Origin: Flagellimonas beolgyonensis
GTDB lineage: Bacteria > Bacteroidota > Bacteroidia > Flavobacteriales > Flavobacteriaceae
Assembly: GCF_003992615.1 (NCBI RefSeq)
Contig: NZ_RZMY01000003.1
Location: forward strand, 2,501 to 66,500
Direction of reading: 5' to 3'
DNA: 64,000 bases
Below, piece by piece: positions 37,992 to 47,470 of this stretch. The notes beneath the pieces were generated by a model that had not been told where the DNA came from, made no database searches, and saw only the letters and a program-made list of their open reading frames with translations. Within the stretch, counting starts at the first letter, position 1. Each line of letters starts with the position of its first letter. Both the position numbers and the translations under genes were made by a program.

Positions 37992-38139
37992 ACAATTAGT
38001 GGTTAGTAGTCAGTAGTTAGTAATTTTACGTTATTCATTTTCAATTGGCACACCTGTACTCCCATTGCACATTGTTTATTGTTTACTATTAATTGAAAAA
38101 TTCCCTTCACCTTTTACCTTTCACCCTTTACCCTTAACC

Positions 38140-38202
38140 CATTGTACCTTGTTTATTGCTCATTGTACATTGTATAAAATCCCCAGTTTTTTTAAGGTTT
38201 TT
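38140..38202 (+). repeat. Left copy of a direct repeat flanking the fulvocin-like pair
   Basis: The segment from CATTGTACCTTGTTTATTGC to the run CCCCAGTTTTTTT recurs at 40001-40063, with about 90% identity over 63 bp. The gap 37992-38459 (468 bp) otherwise holds low-complexity sequence (AGTGGTTAGTAGTCAGTAG) and a weak 71-codon frame that I do not call. The two copies lie 1.86 kb apart and enclose two genes. Confidence 0.75.
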
Positions 38203-39132: not shown

Positions 39133-39984
39133 ATGAAAAAAATATTTCTCAAGGTTAAATACCTCCTTGTCCCCCTCACCTACCTATTGGCCGGGGTTCT
39201 GTTTTACGGTGATCATTTGTATATGCTGCCCACCACCCTGATCGTTTGTTTTTTGACCGCCTATTATTTGATGGACACCTCAAAAAAATGGCAGTGGTTT
39301 TGGGCCTTTGTCCCGCTGTGGTTGTTGATCTTGGTTCCCTCTCTCCTTACTCTGGACTTTAAACGTTCCATCCTCTATTTGTTGGGCATTCCTTTGAGTA
39401 TGCTTTTTGGTCTTTGGGCCAAAAAGGGATGGTTTGTACCCAAATTGATGGTCATGGTGGTATTGGCGCTTTTTTTGGGAAAATTTGGATATCCGAGTGT
39501 GCTGTTGGCCTTAACCGACGATTCCACTTTTCACGACACCAAACCTTTTCCTACCCAATTGGTTTTTGTAGACAAGACCAAAGACACCATTGCATTGGAT
39601 AAAAAGATTACGGTTTTGGATTTCTGGAACACCGCCTGCAAGCCTTGCTTTGAAAAATTCCCCTACTTTGAAAAGGTGAGTGAGAAATACAACCATCCCG
39701 ATATTGCCTTTTACTCCGTTAACGTTCCCTTGGAAGACCAAGAATTTGAAGCTCGTACCCAAGTGGAAACCCGGTTGGGTTACTCGTATACCACCCTTTA
39801 CGCAGAAGACCTAAAAAAAGTGCAGGAGGCGTTGGATTTCAATGCCTACCCCCACCTCATCATTGTACAAGACAGCACCATTATTTACAGCGGTACACTG
39901 GTAACCGGAGAAAGCATTTATATCGATAATTTGGACAAGCAACTGGCCAAAATCACCCAAAAATTGGGCCTACACCCCCATTAA
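39133..39984 (+). CDS. Membrane-bound TlpA-like thiol-disulfide oxidoreductase
   Basis: 283 residues: four to five transmembrane helices in the first ~120, then a thioredoxin-like domain with the active site FWNTACKPCFEKF (Cys169, Cys172) and the cis-Pro loop FNAYPHLIIV. Proteins of this type reduce or form disulfides in the periplasm. Because it follows the Cys-rich fulvocin-like gene directly, it probably makes or shuffles that protein's disulfides. The chosen start MKKIFLKVKYLL (39133) begins 8 codons inside the open frame and gives the right membrane topology. The right-hand direct repeat begins 17 bp after the stop. Confidence 0.85.
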   Translation: MKKIFLKVKYLLVPLTYLLAGVLFYGDHLYMLPTTLIVCFLTAYYLMDTSKKWQWFWAFVPLWLLILVPSLLTLDFKRSILYLLGIPLSMLFGLWAKKGWFVPKLMVMVVLALFLGKFGYPSVLLALTDDSTFHDTKPFPTQLVFVDKTKDTIALDKKITVLDFWNTACKPCFEKFPYFEKVSEKYNHPDIAFYSVNVPLEDQEFEARTQVETRLGYSYTTLYAEDLKKVQEALDFNAYPHLIIVQDSTIIYSGTLVTGESIYIDNLDKQLAKITQKLGLHPH

Positions 39985-40000
39985 CCCTTCACCCTTCACC

Positions 40001-40063
40001 CATTGCAAATTGTTTATTGCTCATTGTACATTGTACAAAACCCCCAGTTTTTTTACGGTTTTC
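40001..40063 (+). repeat. Right copy of the direct repeat flanking the fulvocin-like pair
   Basis: CATTGCAAATTGTTTATTGC to CCCCCAGTTTTTTTAC matches the left copy at 38140-38202. Region 40064-40211 up to the next cassette is AT-rich with no gene. Confidence 0.75.
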
Positions 40064-43462: not shown

Positions 43463-43648
43463 TTGTCCTGTCGAGCGCAGTCGAGACATCGGTGAGAAAT
43501 CCCAACCTCTAACAGATTTCTCAATCGTCACTGTGTTCCTCATTTCGAAATGACCAACGGAATGTCATTTCGAACCGACTAGAGGGAGTGTGAGAAATCT
43601 CAACTGCAATTAGATTTCTCAGTCGTTGCACTCCTTCGAAATGACAAC
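43463..43648. repeat. 98-bp palindromic repeat, block 1
   Basis: A two-unit, partly decayed copy of the repeat with arms GTCATTTCGAACCGAC...GTGAGAAATC and AGATTTCTCA...TCGAAATGAC. A CGAGCGCAGTCGAGAC start variant replaces the first arm. It fills the space between the XRE gene and the next CDS at 43711. Confidence 0.8.
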
Positions 43649-43710
43649 CCAACACCACTTGCAAGAGTAATTGCAAAACTGTATTTTCAACCCAACGCAT
43701 AACCGCAACT

Positions 43711-44208
43711 ATGAAAAATACCCTTTTGTTGGGCCTTCTTGTTTTTATGGCCCTAAGTACGCTACAAGCGCAACAAACTCCTACCTCTCCAAAACCCATC
43801 GACATGAAGATAAACCTACTGGGCTACCGTTTTTTCCAAGATGGAGAACGCCTCAACTGGCGCGAACTGGAAGCGGCCACCGTGGCCGTGGAGGAAGCCA
43901 ACCAATTGATTAAAAGAGCAAAATCACAACGCACCTTTTCCAATGTTTTGGCCTTTGTGGGCGGTGGTTTTATCGGCGTGCCCTTGGGTCAGCAATCGGC
44001 GAACCGTGACCCCAATTGGGAACTGGCCTATATTGGCGGCGCCATTGCTGTTGTTAGTTTCCATTTGTCTTTTAGGGCCTTTAACAACGTCAACAAAGGC
44101 GTGGACACCTACAATATGGCCATTGCACCCTCCACCAGTTACCGCTTTCAACCCGAAGTGTTTGTGATCAACAACCAAAACGGGTTTGGGCTTTCGGTGC
44201 GGTTTTAG
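43711..44208 (+). CDS. Hypothetical exported protein
   Basis: 165 residues with a signal peptide (MKNTLLLGLLVFMALSTLQAQ). A short N-terminal region (INLLGYRFFQDGERLNWRELE) is followed by a helix (AVEEANQLIKRAKSQRT), a glycine-rich membrane hairpin (FVGGGFIGVPLG and YIGGAIAVVSFHLSF) and a tail ending GFGLSVRF. The pattern recalls flavobacterial outer-membrane or membrane-associated proteins of unknown function. It is surrounded by repeat blocks 1 and 2 and has no operon partner. Confidence 0.6.
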   Translation: MKNTLLLGLLVFMALSTLQAQQTPTSPKPIDMKINLLGYRFFQDGERLNWRELEAATVAVEEANQLIKRAKSQRTFSNVLAFVGGGFIGVPLGQQSANRDPNWELAYIGGAIAVVSFHLSFRAFNNVNKGVDTYNMAIAPSTSYRFQPEVFVINNQNGFGLSVRF

Positions 44209-44225
44209 AATGGCACTTTCATTCC

Positions 44226-44610
44226 CTGTCCTGTCTAGCGCAGTCGAGACATCGGTAAAAAATCCAAACCTCTAACAGATTTCTCAATCGTCACTTGGTG
44301 CCTCATATTGAAATGACCAACGGAACGTCATTTCGAACCGACCAGAGGGAGCGTGAGAAATCCCAACCTCAAACAGATTTCTCAATCGTCATTTGGTGCC
44401 TCATATCGAAATGACCAACGGAACGTCATTTCGAACCGACTAAAGGGAGCGTGAGAAATCCCAATCTCAAACAGATTTCTCAATCGTCACTGCGTTCCTC
44501 ATGTCGAAATGACCAATCGAACGTCATTTCGAACCGACCATGAGGAGCGTGAGAAATCTCAAATATAAAGAATCAGATTTCTCGGTCGCTACGCTCCCTT
44601 GAAATGACAA
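44226..44610. repeat. 98-bp palindromic repeat, block 2
   Basis: Four units, with the GTCATTTCGAACC arm at 44327, 44425 and 44523, exactly 98 bp apart. Each unit is an imperfect hairpin (GTCATTTCGA.../...TCGAAATGAC and GAGAAATC/GATTTCTC). This is the content of the gap 44209-44697 apart from ~90 bp of leader before the next small gene. Confidence 0.9.
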
Positions 44611-44697
44611 ACTCGGAACATTCCTAAAATAATTGCTTTTTTCTGTATCCTTTTGGTGGCTATTGGGTCTCCCTTACAAACCTTAAATAATATACCT

Positions 44698-44814
44698 ATG
44701 AATACCTGTGTTTGTACCGATTGTAAATGCACCCAATGTGATTGCGGCGATTGCAAGGCTGCCCAATGCAGCTGCACCCAATGCGACTGCCCCGATTGTG
44801 CGTGCTGCAACTAA
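44698..44814 (+). CDS. Metallothionein-like 38-residue Cys-rich protein
   Basis: A 38-residue frame with 14 cysteines (37%), nearly all in CxC and CxxC spacing, and two similar halves: CTDCKCTQCDCGDCK and CSCTQCDCPDCACC. There is no aromatic residue and no histidine. This composition is that of a metallothionein or similar soft-metal chelator, but it does not match the classical bacterial SmtA. Start ATG at 44698, stop TAA at 44814. A terminator follows, then a sigma-factor gene whose product also has extra CC and CxxC pairs; a shared role in metal or thiol stress is inferred. Confidence 0.72.
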   Translation: MNTCVCTDCKCTQCDCGDCKAAQCSCTQCDCPDCACCN

Positions 44815-44819
44815 ACCCT

Positions 44820-44848
44820 AAAAGGCCGGCCCAAAGGTTGGCCTTTTT
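44820..44848 (+). terminator. Intrinsic terminator between the Cys-rich gene and the sigma factor
   Basis: AAAAGGCC (44820-44827) pairs with GGCCTTTT (44840-44847), followed by T. It lies 6 bp after the stop of the metallothionein-like gene and 14 bp before the sigma-factor start, so the sigma gene either reads through or has its own promoter. Confidence 0.75.
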
Positions 44849-44861
44849 GTACCTTAGTAAC

Positions 44862-45383
44862 ATGAACACCCAAGAAATCCATCAAAAATATGGCGACCCA
44901 TTGTATTTCTTTATCCTGAAACGGGTTCGGGATGAAGCGGTGGCCCATGATGTGTTTCAAAACACTTTTGTAAAGATCCACAACAACCTGGATCAACTTA
45001 AAGATCCGCAGAAAGTACGCTCATGGGTCTTTCAAATAGCCCGCAATGAAATTATTGATCTGGTGGCCTCGGAAAGTAAGTTCGTGCCCCAAAAAAGGGA
45101 ACTTAAGGACAAATCCGATACCCAGGGGATGAGCCCTTGTTGTTTTAATCGGTTTATGGAAGAGCTGCCGCAGAACTACAAACAAACCCTGCAACTGGTT
45201 TATGTTCAGGGCAAAAAACAACAAGAGGCCGCCGATGTGCTTGGCTTAAGTTTGGCCAATGTAAAGGCCCATATTCGAAGGGCAAAGGAACTTTTAAAGA
45301 CCCGTTTTGTTACGTGTTGCCAATACCAATTGGATGCCTCGGGCAAGTTGGTGGGCGAACCGGACTGCGCACATTGTGGGTGA
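44862..45383 (+). CDS. SigZ-type ECF sigma factor with cysteine-rich C-terminus
   Basis: 173 residues. Region 2 is DPLYFFILKRVRDEAVAHDVFQNTFVKIHNNL...KVRSWVFQIARNEIIDL (about 12-67), region 4 is LPQNYKQTLQLVYVQGKKQQEAADVLGLSLANVKAHIRRAKELLK (about 102-146). Between them is SPCCFNRF (Cys93, Cys94), and the tail TCCQYQLDASGKLVGEPDCAHCG adds Cys152, 153, 169 and 172. This CC...CC-CxxC set is typical of SigZ-like ECF factors, which carry no anti-sigma gene; the cysteines could bind metal and switch activity (inference). The true start is the ATG at 44862. The nearest gene is metallothionein-like. Confidence 0.85.
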   Translation: MNTQEIHQKYGDPLYFFILKRVRDEAVAHDVFQNTFVKIHNNLDQLKDPQKVRSWVFQIARNEIIDLVASESKFVPQKRELKDKSDTQGMSPCCFNRFMEELPQNYKQTLQLVYVQGKKQQEAADVLGLSLANVKAHIRRAKELLKTRFVTCCQYQLDASGKLVGEPDCAHCG

Positions 45384-45400
45384 ACTTCTTCTCCCTGTTT

Positions 45401-45469
45401 TTAAAACACTTTCTTTACTGCTTCAATCGTCCGGTCCAAATCAGCATAGCTGAGGGCATCGTTTAATAA
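45401..45469 (-). pseudogene. Detached, diverged copy of the hemL 3' end
   Basis: The minus strand reads ...[23 protein letters not shown] and then a stop at 45403-45401. It matches the last residues of intact HemL ([24 protein letters not shown]) in about 17 of 23 positions and ~77% of nucleotides. Beyond this the frame runs into a repeat unit. No start or upstream gene part is present, so it is a relic. It lies 720 bp downstream of the intact hemL stop, beyond the GIY-YIG gene and its repeats. Confidence 0.85.
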
Positions 45470-45747
45470 AGAGATTTTTCATTCGTTGCACTCCTTCGAA
45501 ATGACCAAAACAACGTCATTTCGAACCGACCATAGGGAGCGTGAGAAATCCCAACCTCAAACAGATTTCTCAATCGTCACTGCGTTCCTCATGTCGAAAT
45601 GACCAATCGAACGTCATTTCGAACCGACCAAAGGGAGGGTGAGAAATCTCAACCACAAATAGATTTCTCAATCGTCACTGCGTTCCTCATGTCGAAATGA
45701 CCAATCGAACGTCATTTCGAACCGACCGAAGGGAGCGTGAGAAATCT
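45470..45747. repeat. 98-bp palindromic repeat, block 3
   Basis: Three units, with the GTCATTTCGAACC arm at 45515, 45613 and 45711, exactly 98 bp apart. The block starts at the edge of the hemL relic and ends in the stop codon of the GIY-YIG gene; the TAG stop is made partly from the repeat's AGATTTC arm. Confidence 0.9.
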
Positions 45748-46045
45748 ACACCATCTCATTGTTCAAAAATTCCCAGTTAGGGTTAAAGTTGGAAATCAAC
45801 CTATCTTTCTTTTCCCTTCTCCATTTCTTGAGTTCCTTTTCTCGGGCTATGGCCATTTCAATGGAATCAAACCGTTCATAGTACACCAGATGAATACAAT
45901 TGTACCGCCCAGCAAATGATTTCTTGGCGTTTTGACTATCGAATTGGTGTTGGGAAAGTCTGTCTTGAATATTATTGGTCACCCCAATGTACAGCACACT
46001 TTTATTTTGGTTGGTTGTGATGTAAACAAAATAAGGCGATAACAT
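45746..46045 (-). CDS. GIY-YIG nuclease family protein
   Basis: 99 residues starting MLSPYFVYITTNQ, with the catalytic GIY-YIG signature in FVYIT...SVLYIGVTNN (Tyr8, Tyr19, Ile20, Gly21), Arg29 in QDRL, and Glu in REKELKKWRREKK. The fold and length match the small single-domain GIY-YIG family (YhbQ/UPF0213-like), DNA nucleases of uncertain role. The gene sits exactly between two blocks of the 98-bp palindromic repeat, with its stop inside one block and its start 10-15 bp from the other, next to a split hemL. This recalls the pairing of REP repeats and RAYT transposases, but with a different nuclease. Confidence 0.9.
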   Translation of the reverse strand: MLSPYFVYITTNQNKSVLYIGVTNNIQDRLSQHQFDSQNAKKSFAGRYNCIHLVYYERFDSIEMAIAREKELKKWRREKKDRLISNFNPNWEFLNNEMV

Positions 46046-46055
46046 AATTTGAAAG

Positions 46056-46186
46056 TGTTAGATTTCTCAGTCGCTACGCTTCTTCGAAATGACCAAAACA
46101 ACGTCATTTCGAACCGACCAGAGGGAGTATGAGAAATCTCAACCACAAATAGATTTCTCAGTCGCTACGCTCCTTCGAAATGACAT
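46056..46186. repeat. 98-bp palindromic repeat, block 4
   Basis: One full unit plus a half unit, starting GTTAGATTTCTCAGTCGCTACGC about 10 bp upstream of the GIY-YIG start and ending TCGAAATGACATC 7 bp before the hemL stop codon. It lies between the GIY-YIG gene and intact hemL. Confidence 0.88.
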
Positions 46187-46192
46187 CGACCA

Positions 46193-47470
46193 TTAGAAAA
46201 CTTTCCCCACGGCCTCAATGGTCTTATCCAAATCGGCATAGCTGAGAGCATCGCTTAAAAAGTAGCTTTCAAAGGCCGAAGGGGGCAAATACACCCCATT
46301 GTCCAACATCCCGTGGAAGTATTTCTTAAACATATCGTTGTTGCCCTTGGCCGCACTGGAAAAATCCACCACGGGCTCGTCCGTAAAGTGCACGGAAATC
46401 ATACTGCCAAAACGGTTGATCTGGTGGGTCACCCCTTTTTCCGTCAATACTTCGGCAATCCCCTTGTGCAAGTATTCGGTTTTTTCCGCCAAGCTGGTAA
46501 ACACTTCGGGGCGGTTGTACAGTTCAGTGAGCATAGCCAGTCCGGCACTCATGGCCAAGGGGTTACCACTCAAGGTACCCGCTTGGTACACGGGGCCTTC
46601 CGGTGCCAAATGCGCCATGATCTCGGCTCGGGCCGCAAATGCCCCCACGGGCAGTCCGCCCCCGATCACTTTTCCGAACATCACAATATCGGCGTTCACG
46701 CCCAAGGCTTCCTGTGCGCCTCCTCTGCCCAAACGGAAGCCGGTCATCACCTCATCGAACAACAACAAAATGCCCTCGCGGGTGCAGATGTCGCGTAGCC
46801 CTTCCACAAAACCGTCTTGGGGCACAATGCAGCCCATGTTGCCCGCTACGGGCTCCAAAATAATCGCCGCGATCTCGCCTTGGTTGGCGTCCACCAAGGC
46901 CTGTACACTGCCCAGGTCGTTGTAAGTGGCCAATAAGGTGTCCTTGGCCGTGCCTTGGGTGACCCCGGGACTGTTGGGACTGCCAAAGGTAACGGCCCCG
47001 CTCCCCGCCTGTATCAAAAACGAGTCGGAGTGGCCGTGGTAGCAGCCCGCAAATTTGATGATCTTGTCCTTGCCCGTGTACCCGCGCGCGAGGCGCACCG
47101 CACTCATACAGGCTTCGGTACCACTGTTCACAAAGCGGATCTTGTCGATGTTCGGCACCATGGAAACCGCCAATTGGGCCAGTTCGGTCTCAATTTCGGT
47201 GGGCATCCCGAAGGAAGTGCCCTTTTTGGCCTTTTCCACCACGGCGTTGATCACGGGTTCGTAGGCATGACCCAAGATCAGCGGCCCCCACGAGGCAATG
47301 TAATCGATGAGTTGGTTGCCATCCACATCGTAGAGGTAGGCACCCTTGGCCTCCTTTACAAAAATGGGGTCGCCCCCTACCGCTTTAAACGCCCGAACGG
47401 GTGAGTTTACGCCTCCTGGAATGTATTTTTTGGCCTCTGCGAACAAGGCACTGCTGCGTTGGTAGATCAT
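46193..47470 (-). CDS. hemL: Glutamate-1-semialdehyde 2,1-aminomutase
   Basis: Converts glutamate-1-semialdehyde to 5-aminolevulinate in heme synthesis. 425 residues. The fold-type I PLP enzyme shows [16 protein letters not shown] (about 114-129), the [11 protein letters not shown] active-site Asp segment and the PLP-binding lysine in [16 protein letters not shown] near 265. The C-terminus [20 protein letters not shown] closes the gene. The start ATG at 47470 fits the conserved [26 protein letters not shown]. Its 3' end was evidently involved in a rearrangement: a diverged copy of its last codons lies 720 bp downstream beyond a repeat-GIY-YIG unit. Confidence 0.97.

Follow-up and report, generated by a model that had tools for sequence, protein, structure and literature searches.

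Genomic context of the nuclease gene and its repeats

The 64,000-nt stretch of Flagellimonas beolgyonensis DNA analyzed here (the window) contains a small gene encoding a GIY-YIG nuclease, both flanks of which carry arrays of REPs (Table 1), inverted hairpins of the form GTC-ATTTC...GAAAT-C whose half-unit reads GTCATTTCGA...GAGAAATC. The original prediction had recognized the enclosure of the gene by blocks of a palindromic repeat with a 98-bp period, and both points were confirmed: each period comprises a 36-bp and a 40-bp REP hairpin that are oppositely oriented, with the 98-bp spacing present among copies of the stop-side array and of the neighbouring block, and a further copy at position 46060 on the start side. 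The stop codon, predicted to be made of repeat sequence, is indeed the TAG of TAGATTTCTC, and the distance from the ATG to the first repeat, given earlier as about 10 bp, is in fact 14 bp. A REP-derived TAG stop is not constant among these genes: of the 47 homologues of the L071-L122 subset that could be scored, with one mismatch allowed, just 12 have it.

Sixteen exact copies of the pattern GTCATTTCGA(N4-28)GAGAAATC occur at positions 43515-46184, with no match to the reversed control pattern, and the 3.77-Mb genome harbors 45 exact window-type REPs, 29 of them outside the window locus. When three repeat stretches were folded as DNA, each was more stable than all of its 200 shuffles (z -3.3 to -4.0). 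REPs were also located within a few hundred bases of the starts of contigs C11, C13 and C16 of genome G000, which suggests assembly breaks, so that the genome copy numbers given below may be lower bounds.

Table 1. Features of the GIY-YIG locus and the adjacent REP blocks (positions in the window).
Feature	Coordinates	Strand	Remarks
GIY-YIG nuclease gene, 99 aa	45746-46045	minus	Pfam PF01541, E 9.8e-18; small, single-domain, related to UPF0213/COG2827
Stop-side REP array	45472-45749		on the stop-codon side of the GIY-YIG gene
Stop-side array, degenerate REP	45472-45505	minus	
Stop-side array, exact-pattern REP	45515-45550	plus	
Stop-side array, exact-pattern REP	45564-45603	minus	
Stop-side array, exact-pattern REP	45613-45648	plus	
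Stop-side array, exact-pattern REP	45662-45701	minus	
Stop-side array, exact-pattern REP	45711-45746	plus	provides the TAG stop of the GIY-YIG gene
Start-side REP array	46060-46184		between the GIY-YIG gene and hemL
Start-side array, REP	46061-46093	minus	
Start-side array, REP	46103-46138	plus	
Start-side array, REP	46152-46184	minus	GTC tag facing outward to hemL
Second REP block, window family	44277-44608		five exact-pattern REPs at 44327-44558, plus degenerate copies
Third REP block, window family	43515-43645		three exact-pattern REPs
hemL, intact	46193-47470	minus	Pfam match Aminotran_3 (class-III aminotransferase); the name hemL fits
Diverged hemL 3' end, in-frame remnant with stop	45401-45466	minus	fused directly to the stop-side REP array

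The two hemL-derived sequences described earlier are likewise real, an intact gene on one side of the cassette and a diverged copy of its 3' end, an in-frame tail of 21 residues followed by a stop codon, on the other. This remnant is identical at 52 of 66 positions to the end of the window hemL and at 59 of 66 to the hemL end of the relatives L042/L073; with its greater similarity to the latter, it did not arise by recent duplication of the adjacent gene. In the set of loci L001-L150 the remnant was seen only in those of the window genome, which leaves unsupported the idea of an element that generally carries the 3' end of a host gene. A hemL gene was located near the GIY-YIG gene in 10 of 80 homologue loci (eight from Muricauda/Allomuricauda/Flagellimonas and two from Bacteroidia MAGs), and this position is not general for the GIY-YIG gene.

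The GIY-YIG protein

The deduced protein matched PF01541 with a score of 64.7 bits against a cut-off of 22.6, which places it in the GIY-YIG superfamily, and profile searches returned only GIY-YIG-type models for the gene, with no HUH/Y1 tyrosine transposase. Sixteen columns are invariant across 35 diverse homologues, including Y8, Y19, G21, R29, H33, E69 and N88; the invariant tyrosines, arginine, glutamate and asparagine presumably represent the GIY-YIG catalytic set, the roles of which are known from I-TevI and UvrC. With a single domain of ~100 aa and its nearest structures in UPF0213, the protein is UPF0213/COG2827-like: 1ZG2 was the closest match both by profile (E 1.5e-9) and by Foldseek (rank 1, E 1.5e-3, TM 0.55), followed by Slx1 and the UvrC nuclease domain (Foldseek E 0.025 and weaker), and the AlphaFold model was confident (pLDDT 93.2, pTM 0.85). 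As no extra DNA-binding domain is present, specificity would come from the shape of the DNA and a few bases at the foot of the hairpin.

Fold, size and invariant residues are shared with UPF0213/COG2827 (1ZG2, 1YWL) and with the Slx1 family, for which, in contrast to the genes considered here, the open-access literature found describes no link to repeats. More generally, among the open-access papers and preprints in PMC none was found whose title or abstract connects GIY-YIG proteins with palindromic repeats. Many relatives of the window protein bear no more specific label than 'GIY-YIG nuclease family protein' or 'excinuclease ABC subunit C'. Slx1 itself processes branched DNA. E. coli YhbQ and B. 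subtilis YazA are counted in the Slx1 family in the part of a review drawn on here (PMC7017083).

REPs flank the nuclease gene in Bacteroidota and beyond

Homologues were chosen by protein similarity alone (the best 80 of 328, with 53-99% identity). In a first count, based on two 9-mers of the window and requiring at least two motif matches within 250 bp on each side, repeats were present on both sides of 66 of 78 scorable homologues (L086 and L123 being omitted for short flank), versus 9 of 470 control ORFs from the same loci and none of 251 control ORFs located more than 1.5 kb away. Several of the apparent exceptions carry stem variants in which the two halves show matching changes, namely GTCATCCCGA...GAGGGATC, GTCATCTCGA...GAGAGATC and GTCATGTCGA...GAGACATC. 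A generic REP detector, constrained solely by the tag and the initial AT of the stem, was also applied, with expectations derived from dinucleotide shuffles. By this measure 64 of 74 Bacteroidota loci have REPs on both sides (0.25 expected) and 72 on at least one (12.15 expected), with L138 and L139 having them on neither side; L082, L086, L108, L116, L120 (no intact frame) and L123 (short flank) were omitted from the 80. REPs are common in these neighbourhoods: at distances above 1 kb, 72 of 304 control ORFs had a REP no further than 300 bp off on one side or both, and eight had them on both. The 66 long-flank loci represent 33 gene neighbourhoods. In 32 of these, one or more members have REPs on both sides, and in 30 every member does, so the pairing does not reflect a single inherited location.

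In 99 Bacteroidota genomes drawn separately, 60 of which had a match, both-sided REPs were present in 18 of 24 best matches (a further five of the 29 were omitted at contig ends) and in 14 of 20 further high scorers, that is, 32 of 44, with at least one side occupied in 41 and no detectable REPs at L379, L384 and L388. Low-scoring GIY-YIG genes from the same draw had REPs on both sides in 1 of 20 cases and on at least one side in 2 of 20 (2.15 expected); the 40 further loci were selected by score, non-randomly, among the matches listed. The presence of REPs beside high but not low scorers indicates that the association is confined to one GIY-YIG subfamily. Chance placement of REPs beside the gene is ruled out by the shuffles and the control ORFs. 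The original prediction had asked whether close homologues lack repeats, or whether repeats are equally common beside other genes, and on both counts the association was clearly upheld.

Outside this sampling, tblastn against a plasmid collection, several records of which are chromosome-sized despite their label, matched 31 records, and 14 were examined, chosen for taxonomic spread. REPs were found on both sides in ten of these loci (0.00 expected), on one side in two (L155 and L162) and on neither side in L158 and L163. The both-sided loci belong to alpha-, beta- and gammaproteobacteria, the cyanobacterium Planktothrix and Spirosoma, and the proteobacterial flanking repeats are classical CGTC REPs, e.g. 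CGTCATCCTCGGGCTTGACCCGAGGATCCA; canonical CGTC REPs flank both sides of the gene in Shinella, Sinorhizobium K101, Neorhizobium, Rhizobium CIAT894, Azospirillum, Neisseria gonorrhoeae and Aeromonas. Loci on IMG/VR viral contigs had REPs on both sides in 15 of 46 cases (0.05 expected), on one side in seven and on none in 24, after omission of five of 51 for short flank. The association of the nuclease with REPs is near-certain, and it is well supported across several phyla. In Planktothrix the cassette (L153, 4001-4249) has as its neighbours drmA of a DISARM system and a gene whose annotation is that of an MmeI-type restriction enzyme.

REP sequence and nuclease clade

Stem covariation was assessed with pairing not presupposed: 469 of 605 GTCAT(NN)C half-units found their own complementary partner, versus a permuted mean of 249, and after removal of the commonest type the figures were 119 of 214 versus 31. 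As judged from this covariation, the hairpin stem is shown to be kept by compensating changes.

The REP sequences were compared with a tree of 155 proteins, which has few columns and many weak forks. Clade A is accompanied by GTCATTTCGA, clade B by GTCATTCTGA, clade C by GTCATTCCTG/GTCATTCCGC and clade D by GTCATGCTGA/GTCATTCCGA, with variation within the clades. Nine genus genomes were represented in the sample by a pair of REP-flanked genes from different clades among A-D (G000, G006, G008, G011, G019, G020, G027, G033 and G035). In all nine, each gene has beside it the REP of its own clade and not that of its genome-mate, some of the genes being flanked on one side only and one G006 gene being broken. 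At the level of these comparisons, REP sequence is shown to track the nuclease clade and not the genome.

A tree group of 24 proteins, delimited after inspection of the tree, is REP-less apart from three one-sided matches. In the genus set, from which L044, L048, L066 and L171 were omitted out of 77 loci, REPs were not detectable at L056-L058, L060-L062, L064, L168-L170, L173, L175, L176 and L181. Two members of the otherwise REP-less clade, L003 and L187, have a one-sided hairpin of similar type, GTCATGTCGAGCGC.GTCGAGACAT, which is perhaps not due to chance. An identical longer hairpin, GTCATTTCGTTTCTATTTCCACGCAGGTGGAAATCTT, lies beside the near-identical GIY-YIG genes of L063 and L065, in a clade otherwise without CGTC REPs, and may be another, diverged repeat type. 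Broken nuclease genes still located between REPs of their own type were observed at L391 (~1560-1811, clade B) and L066 (~175-441, clade-A-like).

Cassette boundaries and occupied and empty sites

The most informative filled and empty sites were those of F. olearia L077 and genome G031 (L205), which are 94-98% identical by segment. An insert of ~640 bp in L077, composed of three REPs, the nuclease gene and three further REPs, is absent from L205, where the empty site reads straight through (...AACTTTTG|GGATTACTC). The insert starts with TCATTTCG, completing a GTC tag, and finishes with ...CGAAATGACT, its ends being uncertain by a base or two; conversely, a three-REP block after hemL in L205 is missing from L077. 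In this one precise pair, the alignment shows the cassette to be bounded by outward GTC tags. Tags face outward at both array ends in 44 of 82 loci and in 12 of 16 minimal cassettes, where a quarter would be expected and the loci are partly related; one of the array ends of the window cassette has its tail, and not its tag, facing outward.

Azospirillum lipoferum carries a REP-nuclease-REP cassette between sufB and sufC, and five other Azospirillum records (89-97% identical) have ~30-130 bp between these genes and no nuclease gene. The sufB-sufC site is perhaps a recurrent landing site for cassettes. In Shinella L226 the same site is occupied by a nuclease and a REP that both differ from those of Azospirillum L160; the Shinella comparison, at 87% identity, is too diverged to fix exact ends. 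Sinorhizobium K101 has one two-tagged palindrome at the site where S. meliloti carries a cassette, an 'empty' site that is explained equally well by deletion through recombination between REPs. The REP pair of L228 recurs in two relatives of ~90% identity and is missing in L251, and in several relatives that are more distant other REPs stand in its place, with inexact boundaries.

Dispersed REPs and presence of the cognate gene

Window-type REPs are present in 36 of the 40 genus genomes. When all copies were counted across these 40 genomes, those with a cognate gene had more REPs of the corresponding type for clades A, B and C (p 0.0027, 0.0004 and 0.010, respectively), with p 0.32 for clade D; gene presence showed no association with the REP types of other clades (all p above 0.1). 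This test left out broken genes, among them the broken type-B gene that accompanies a type-C gene in G006 and the broken type-A-like gene of G024, and their inclusion gave p 0.0057 for A and 0.0006 for B. After removal of copies beside the gene (within 1.5 kb), the difference remained for clade B (p 0.005, median 12.5 vs 1) and was marginal for clade C (p 0.048), not significant for clade A (p 0.069) and absent for clade D (p 0.65) in the same 40 genomes; part of the copy-number link is the cassette itself. Many REPs were found in genomes where no cognate gene was found, namely 57 of type A in G031, 49 of type A in G030, 21 of type C in G001 and 15 of type D in G005. A greater abundance of dispersed REPs in the presence of the cognate nuclease is thus weakly shown, being clear for one clade of four and marginal for two, and the dispersed REPs are not strictly dependent on the gene.

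Relation to known repeats and mobile elements

REPs have been split into the GTAG and CGTC superfamilies, the latter occurring in Neisseria (dRS3), Rickettsia, alpha-proteobacteria, Bacteroidetes and others (Di Nocera et al. 2013, PMC3733652). In the part of that survey drawn on here, RAYT-REP systems are established for GTAG REPs, and CGTC REPs are described as unassociated with transposase genes and apparently without a dedicated transposase, none having been found beside tyrosine transposases. That negative finding concerned transposase genes; the association reported here is with a nuclease gene, whose mobilizing role is putative. The main text of RepRanger 2025 (PMC12306157) makes no mention of GIY-YIG or nucleases, and in the passages of the REPIN model paper drawn on here (PMC8049555) dRS3 and Neisseria go unmentioned.

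The REPs of the window share with the CGTC superfamily, including Neisseria dRS3 and Rickettsia RPE-4/6, a C/TGTC tag, a stem starting with AT, inverted dimers and dispersed copies, and they agree with its definition as regards the CGTC/TGTC/CCTC tag followed by AT. They differ from it in their longer, variable loops and in variable tails in place of CCA, and their core stem comprises 5 bp. A stem of 8-9 bp, a loop of 4-5 nt and a CCA tail were found in the other-clade REPs of the genus (GTCATTCCTGCGAAAGCAGGAATCCA) and in the proteobacterial REPs, which, beside GIY-YIG genes, have exactly the CGTC form. Lacking these stem, loop and tail features, the window REP is CGTC-like and not a formal member of the superfamily.

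Resemblance to the REPIN-RAYT system, or REPtron, is close in that the enzyme gene is flanked on both sides by matched REPs, gene-less REPs are dispersed and a short tag lies at the foot of the hairpin. The enzyme here is a GIY-YIG protein instead of an HUH/Y1 transposase, and the tag is GTC instead of GTAG; without an HUH/Y1 transposase the element falls outside the REPtrons, even if its mode of action may be similar. With I-TevI-type homing endonucleases the window protein shares the nuclease domain, and the element their mobility; unlike them, the protein has only 99 aa, with no separate DNA-binding domain and no intron or intein seen, and REP hairpins lie on both sides of the gene in many neighbourhoods, which speaks against a single homing site. 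Comparison with known RNA families (Rfam) gave two matches far below threshold, and that with anti-phage systems (PADLOC) weak partial matches only, and both assignments were rejected.

Proposed mechanism and alternative explanations

We conclude that the REPs and the nuclease probably form a partnership analogous to that of REPIN-RAYT but of unrelated chemistry, for which we infer cutting of the hairpins and their spreading. The analogy with RAYTs drawn in the original prediction is strengthened by the matched repeats on both sides, the dispersed copies, the presence and absence of cassettes and the finding of no Y1 transposase in 34 of 40 genomes, with the link between gene presence and copy number standing only in part. 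The interpretation given there, in which the nuclease would cut palindromic DNA and spread it, is partly supported.

The element, a widespread one, would have two components, the small GIY-YIG nuclease and a set of related CGTC-type REP hairpins. The hairpin, either in the form of a cruciform or where the lagging-strand template is single-stranded, may be recognized by the nuclease, which would cut close to or at the GTC tag of the hairpin foot; repair of the break would then copy REPs, or on occasion the entire REP-nuclease-REP cassette, to further intergenic positions, and selection acting on the pair would keep stem and tag matched to the enzyme. A hydrolytic structure-specific nuclease would thereby take the place of the HUH transposase in an otherwise REPIN-RAYT-like system. 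GIY-YIG enzymes hydrolyse DNA without the covalent strand transfer used by HUH transposases, so the route of spreading is probably unlike that of HUH elements and copying would need host repair. We consider this sequence of recognition, cutting at the GTC foot and copying by repair reasonably probable. Its extension to the whole CGTC superfamily is put forward with barely better than even confidence: small GIY-YIG nucleases would be the dedicated mobilizing enzymes of these REPs, including Neisseria dRS3 and probably the rickettsial RPE, and would represent a second, independently evolved kind of REP element, based on hydrolytic cut-and-repair and a cassette bounded by GTC tags. For the CGTC REPs, which make up one of two large superfamilies, no dedicated transposase was apparent in the 2013 survey (PMC3733652), and the nuclease is a candidate for an enzyme that would spread them. 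A function would also be given to many proteins annotated merely as GIY-YIG family or excinuclease ABC subunit C and, if true, the scheme would provide a second, chemically unrelated model for the persistence of tiny palindromes in bacterial genomes.

Among the alternatives, the most probable, and still an unlikely one, is that the protein acts as an Slx1-like structure-specific resolvase that removes REP cruciforms, the REPs spreading by other means and the gene being kept where it is needed. The confident model, with Slx1 and the UvrC nuclease domain as the nearest folds after UPF0213, and the many dispersed REPs without a cognate gene are in line with such a guardian role. A resolvase acting in trans need not sit between REPs, yet the gene does so in at least one member of 32 of the 33 neighbourhoods, and REPs matched to the clade, together with a tag-bounded cassette that is present or absent as a whole, better fit a mobile unit.

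A selfish gene of the homing kind, cutting REP-free or REP-bearing alleles and copied by gene conversion, with the REPs as homology or recognition site, appears improbable. It would account for the GIY-YIG domain, this being the I-TevI-type fold (weak PDB match 1MK0, and TIGR01453 below cut-off), and for the replaced or duplicated hemL 3' end beside the window cassette. That remnant is confined to the window genome among the loci L001-L150, cassettes occupy 33 neighbourhoods among 66 loci with no single site in common, and REPs disperse without the gene.

Even less probable is an ordinary DNA-repair nuclease, a backup of UvrC, around whose small gene REPs accumulated as terminators or mRNA stabilizers. 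Repair roles have been proposed for three C. crescentus COG2827 genes, one of them with an SOS box, in the part of the source drawn on here (PMC1839093); low-scoring GIY-YIG genes, for their part, have REPs at chance level, and a duty as terminators leaves the clade-matched sequence on both sides unexplained.

Mobilization of the REPs in trans by RAYTs or other Y1 transposases, with the nuclease as a passenger, is very improbable despite the precedent of the GTAG REPs, since Y1 genes were found in 6 of 40 genus genomes (the window genome being included by one weak match), compared with the near-ubiquitous window-type REP, the 12 Y1 loci are without a REP array (nine with no REP-detector match and three with one isolated match) and the CGTC REPs surveyed in PMC3733652 were not beside tyrosine transposases. 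Help from RAYTs in REP spreading is therefore unlikely.

Other features of the window

A small Cys-rich ORF of 38 aa (MNTCVCTDCKCTQCDCGDCK...), metallothionein-like and with no Pfam match, is located at 44698-44814, just upstream of a sigma-70 family gene (ORF 44742-45383, PF04542/PF08281). Outside the REP family, the window contains an 85-bp direct repeat with 88% identity between its copies at 38117-38201 and 39978-40062.
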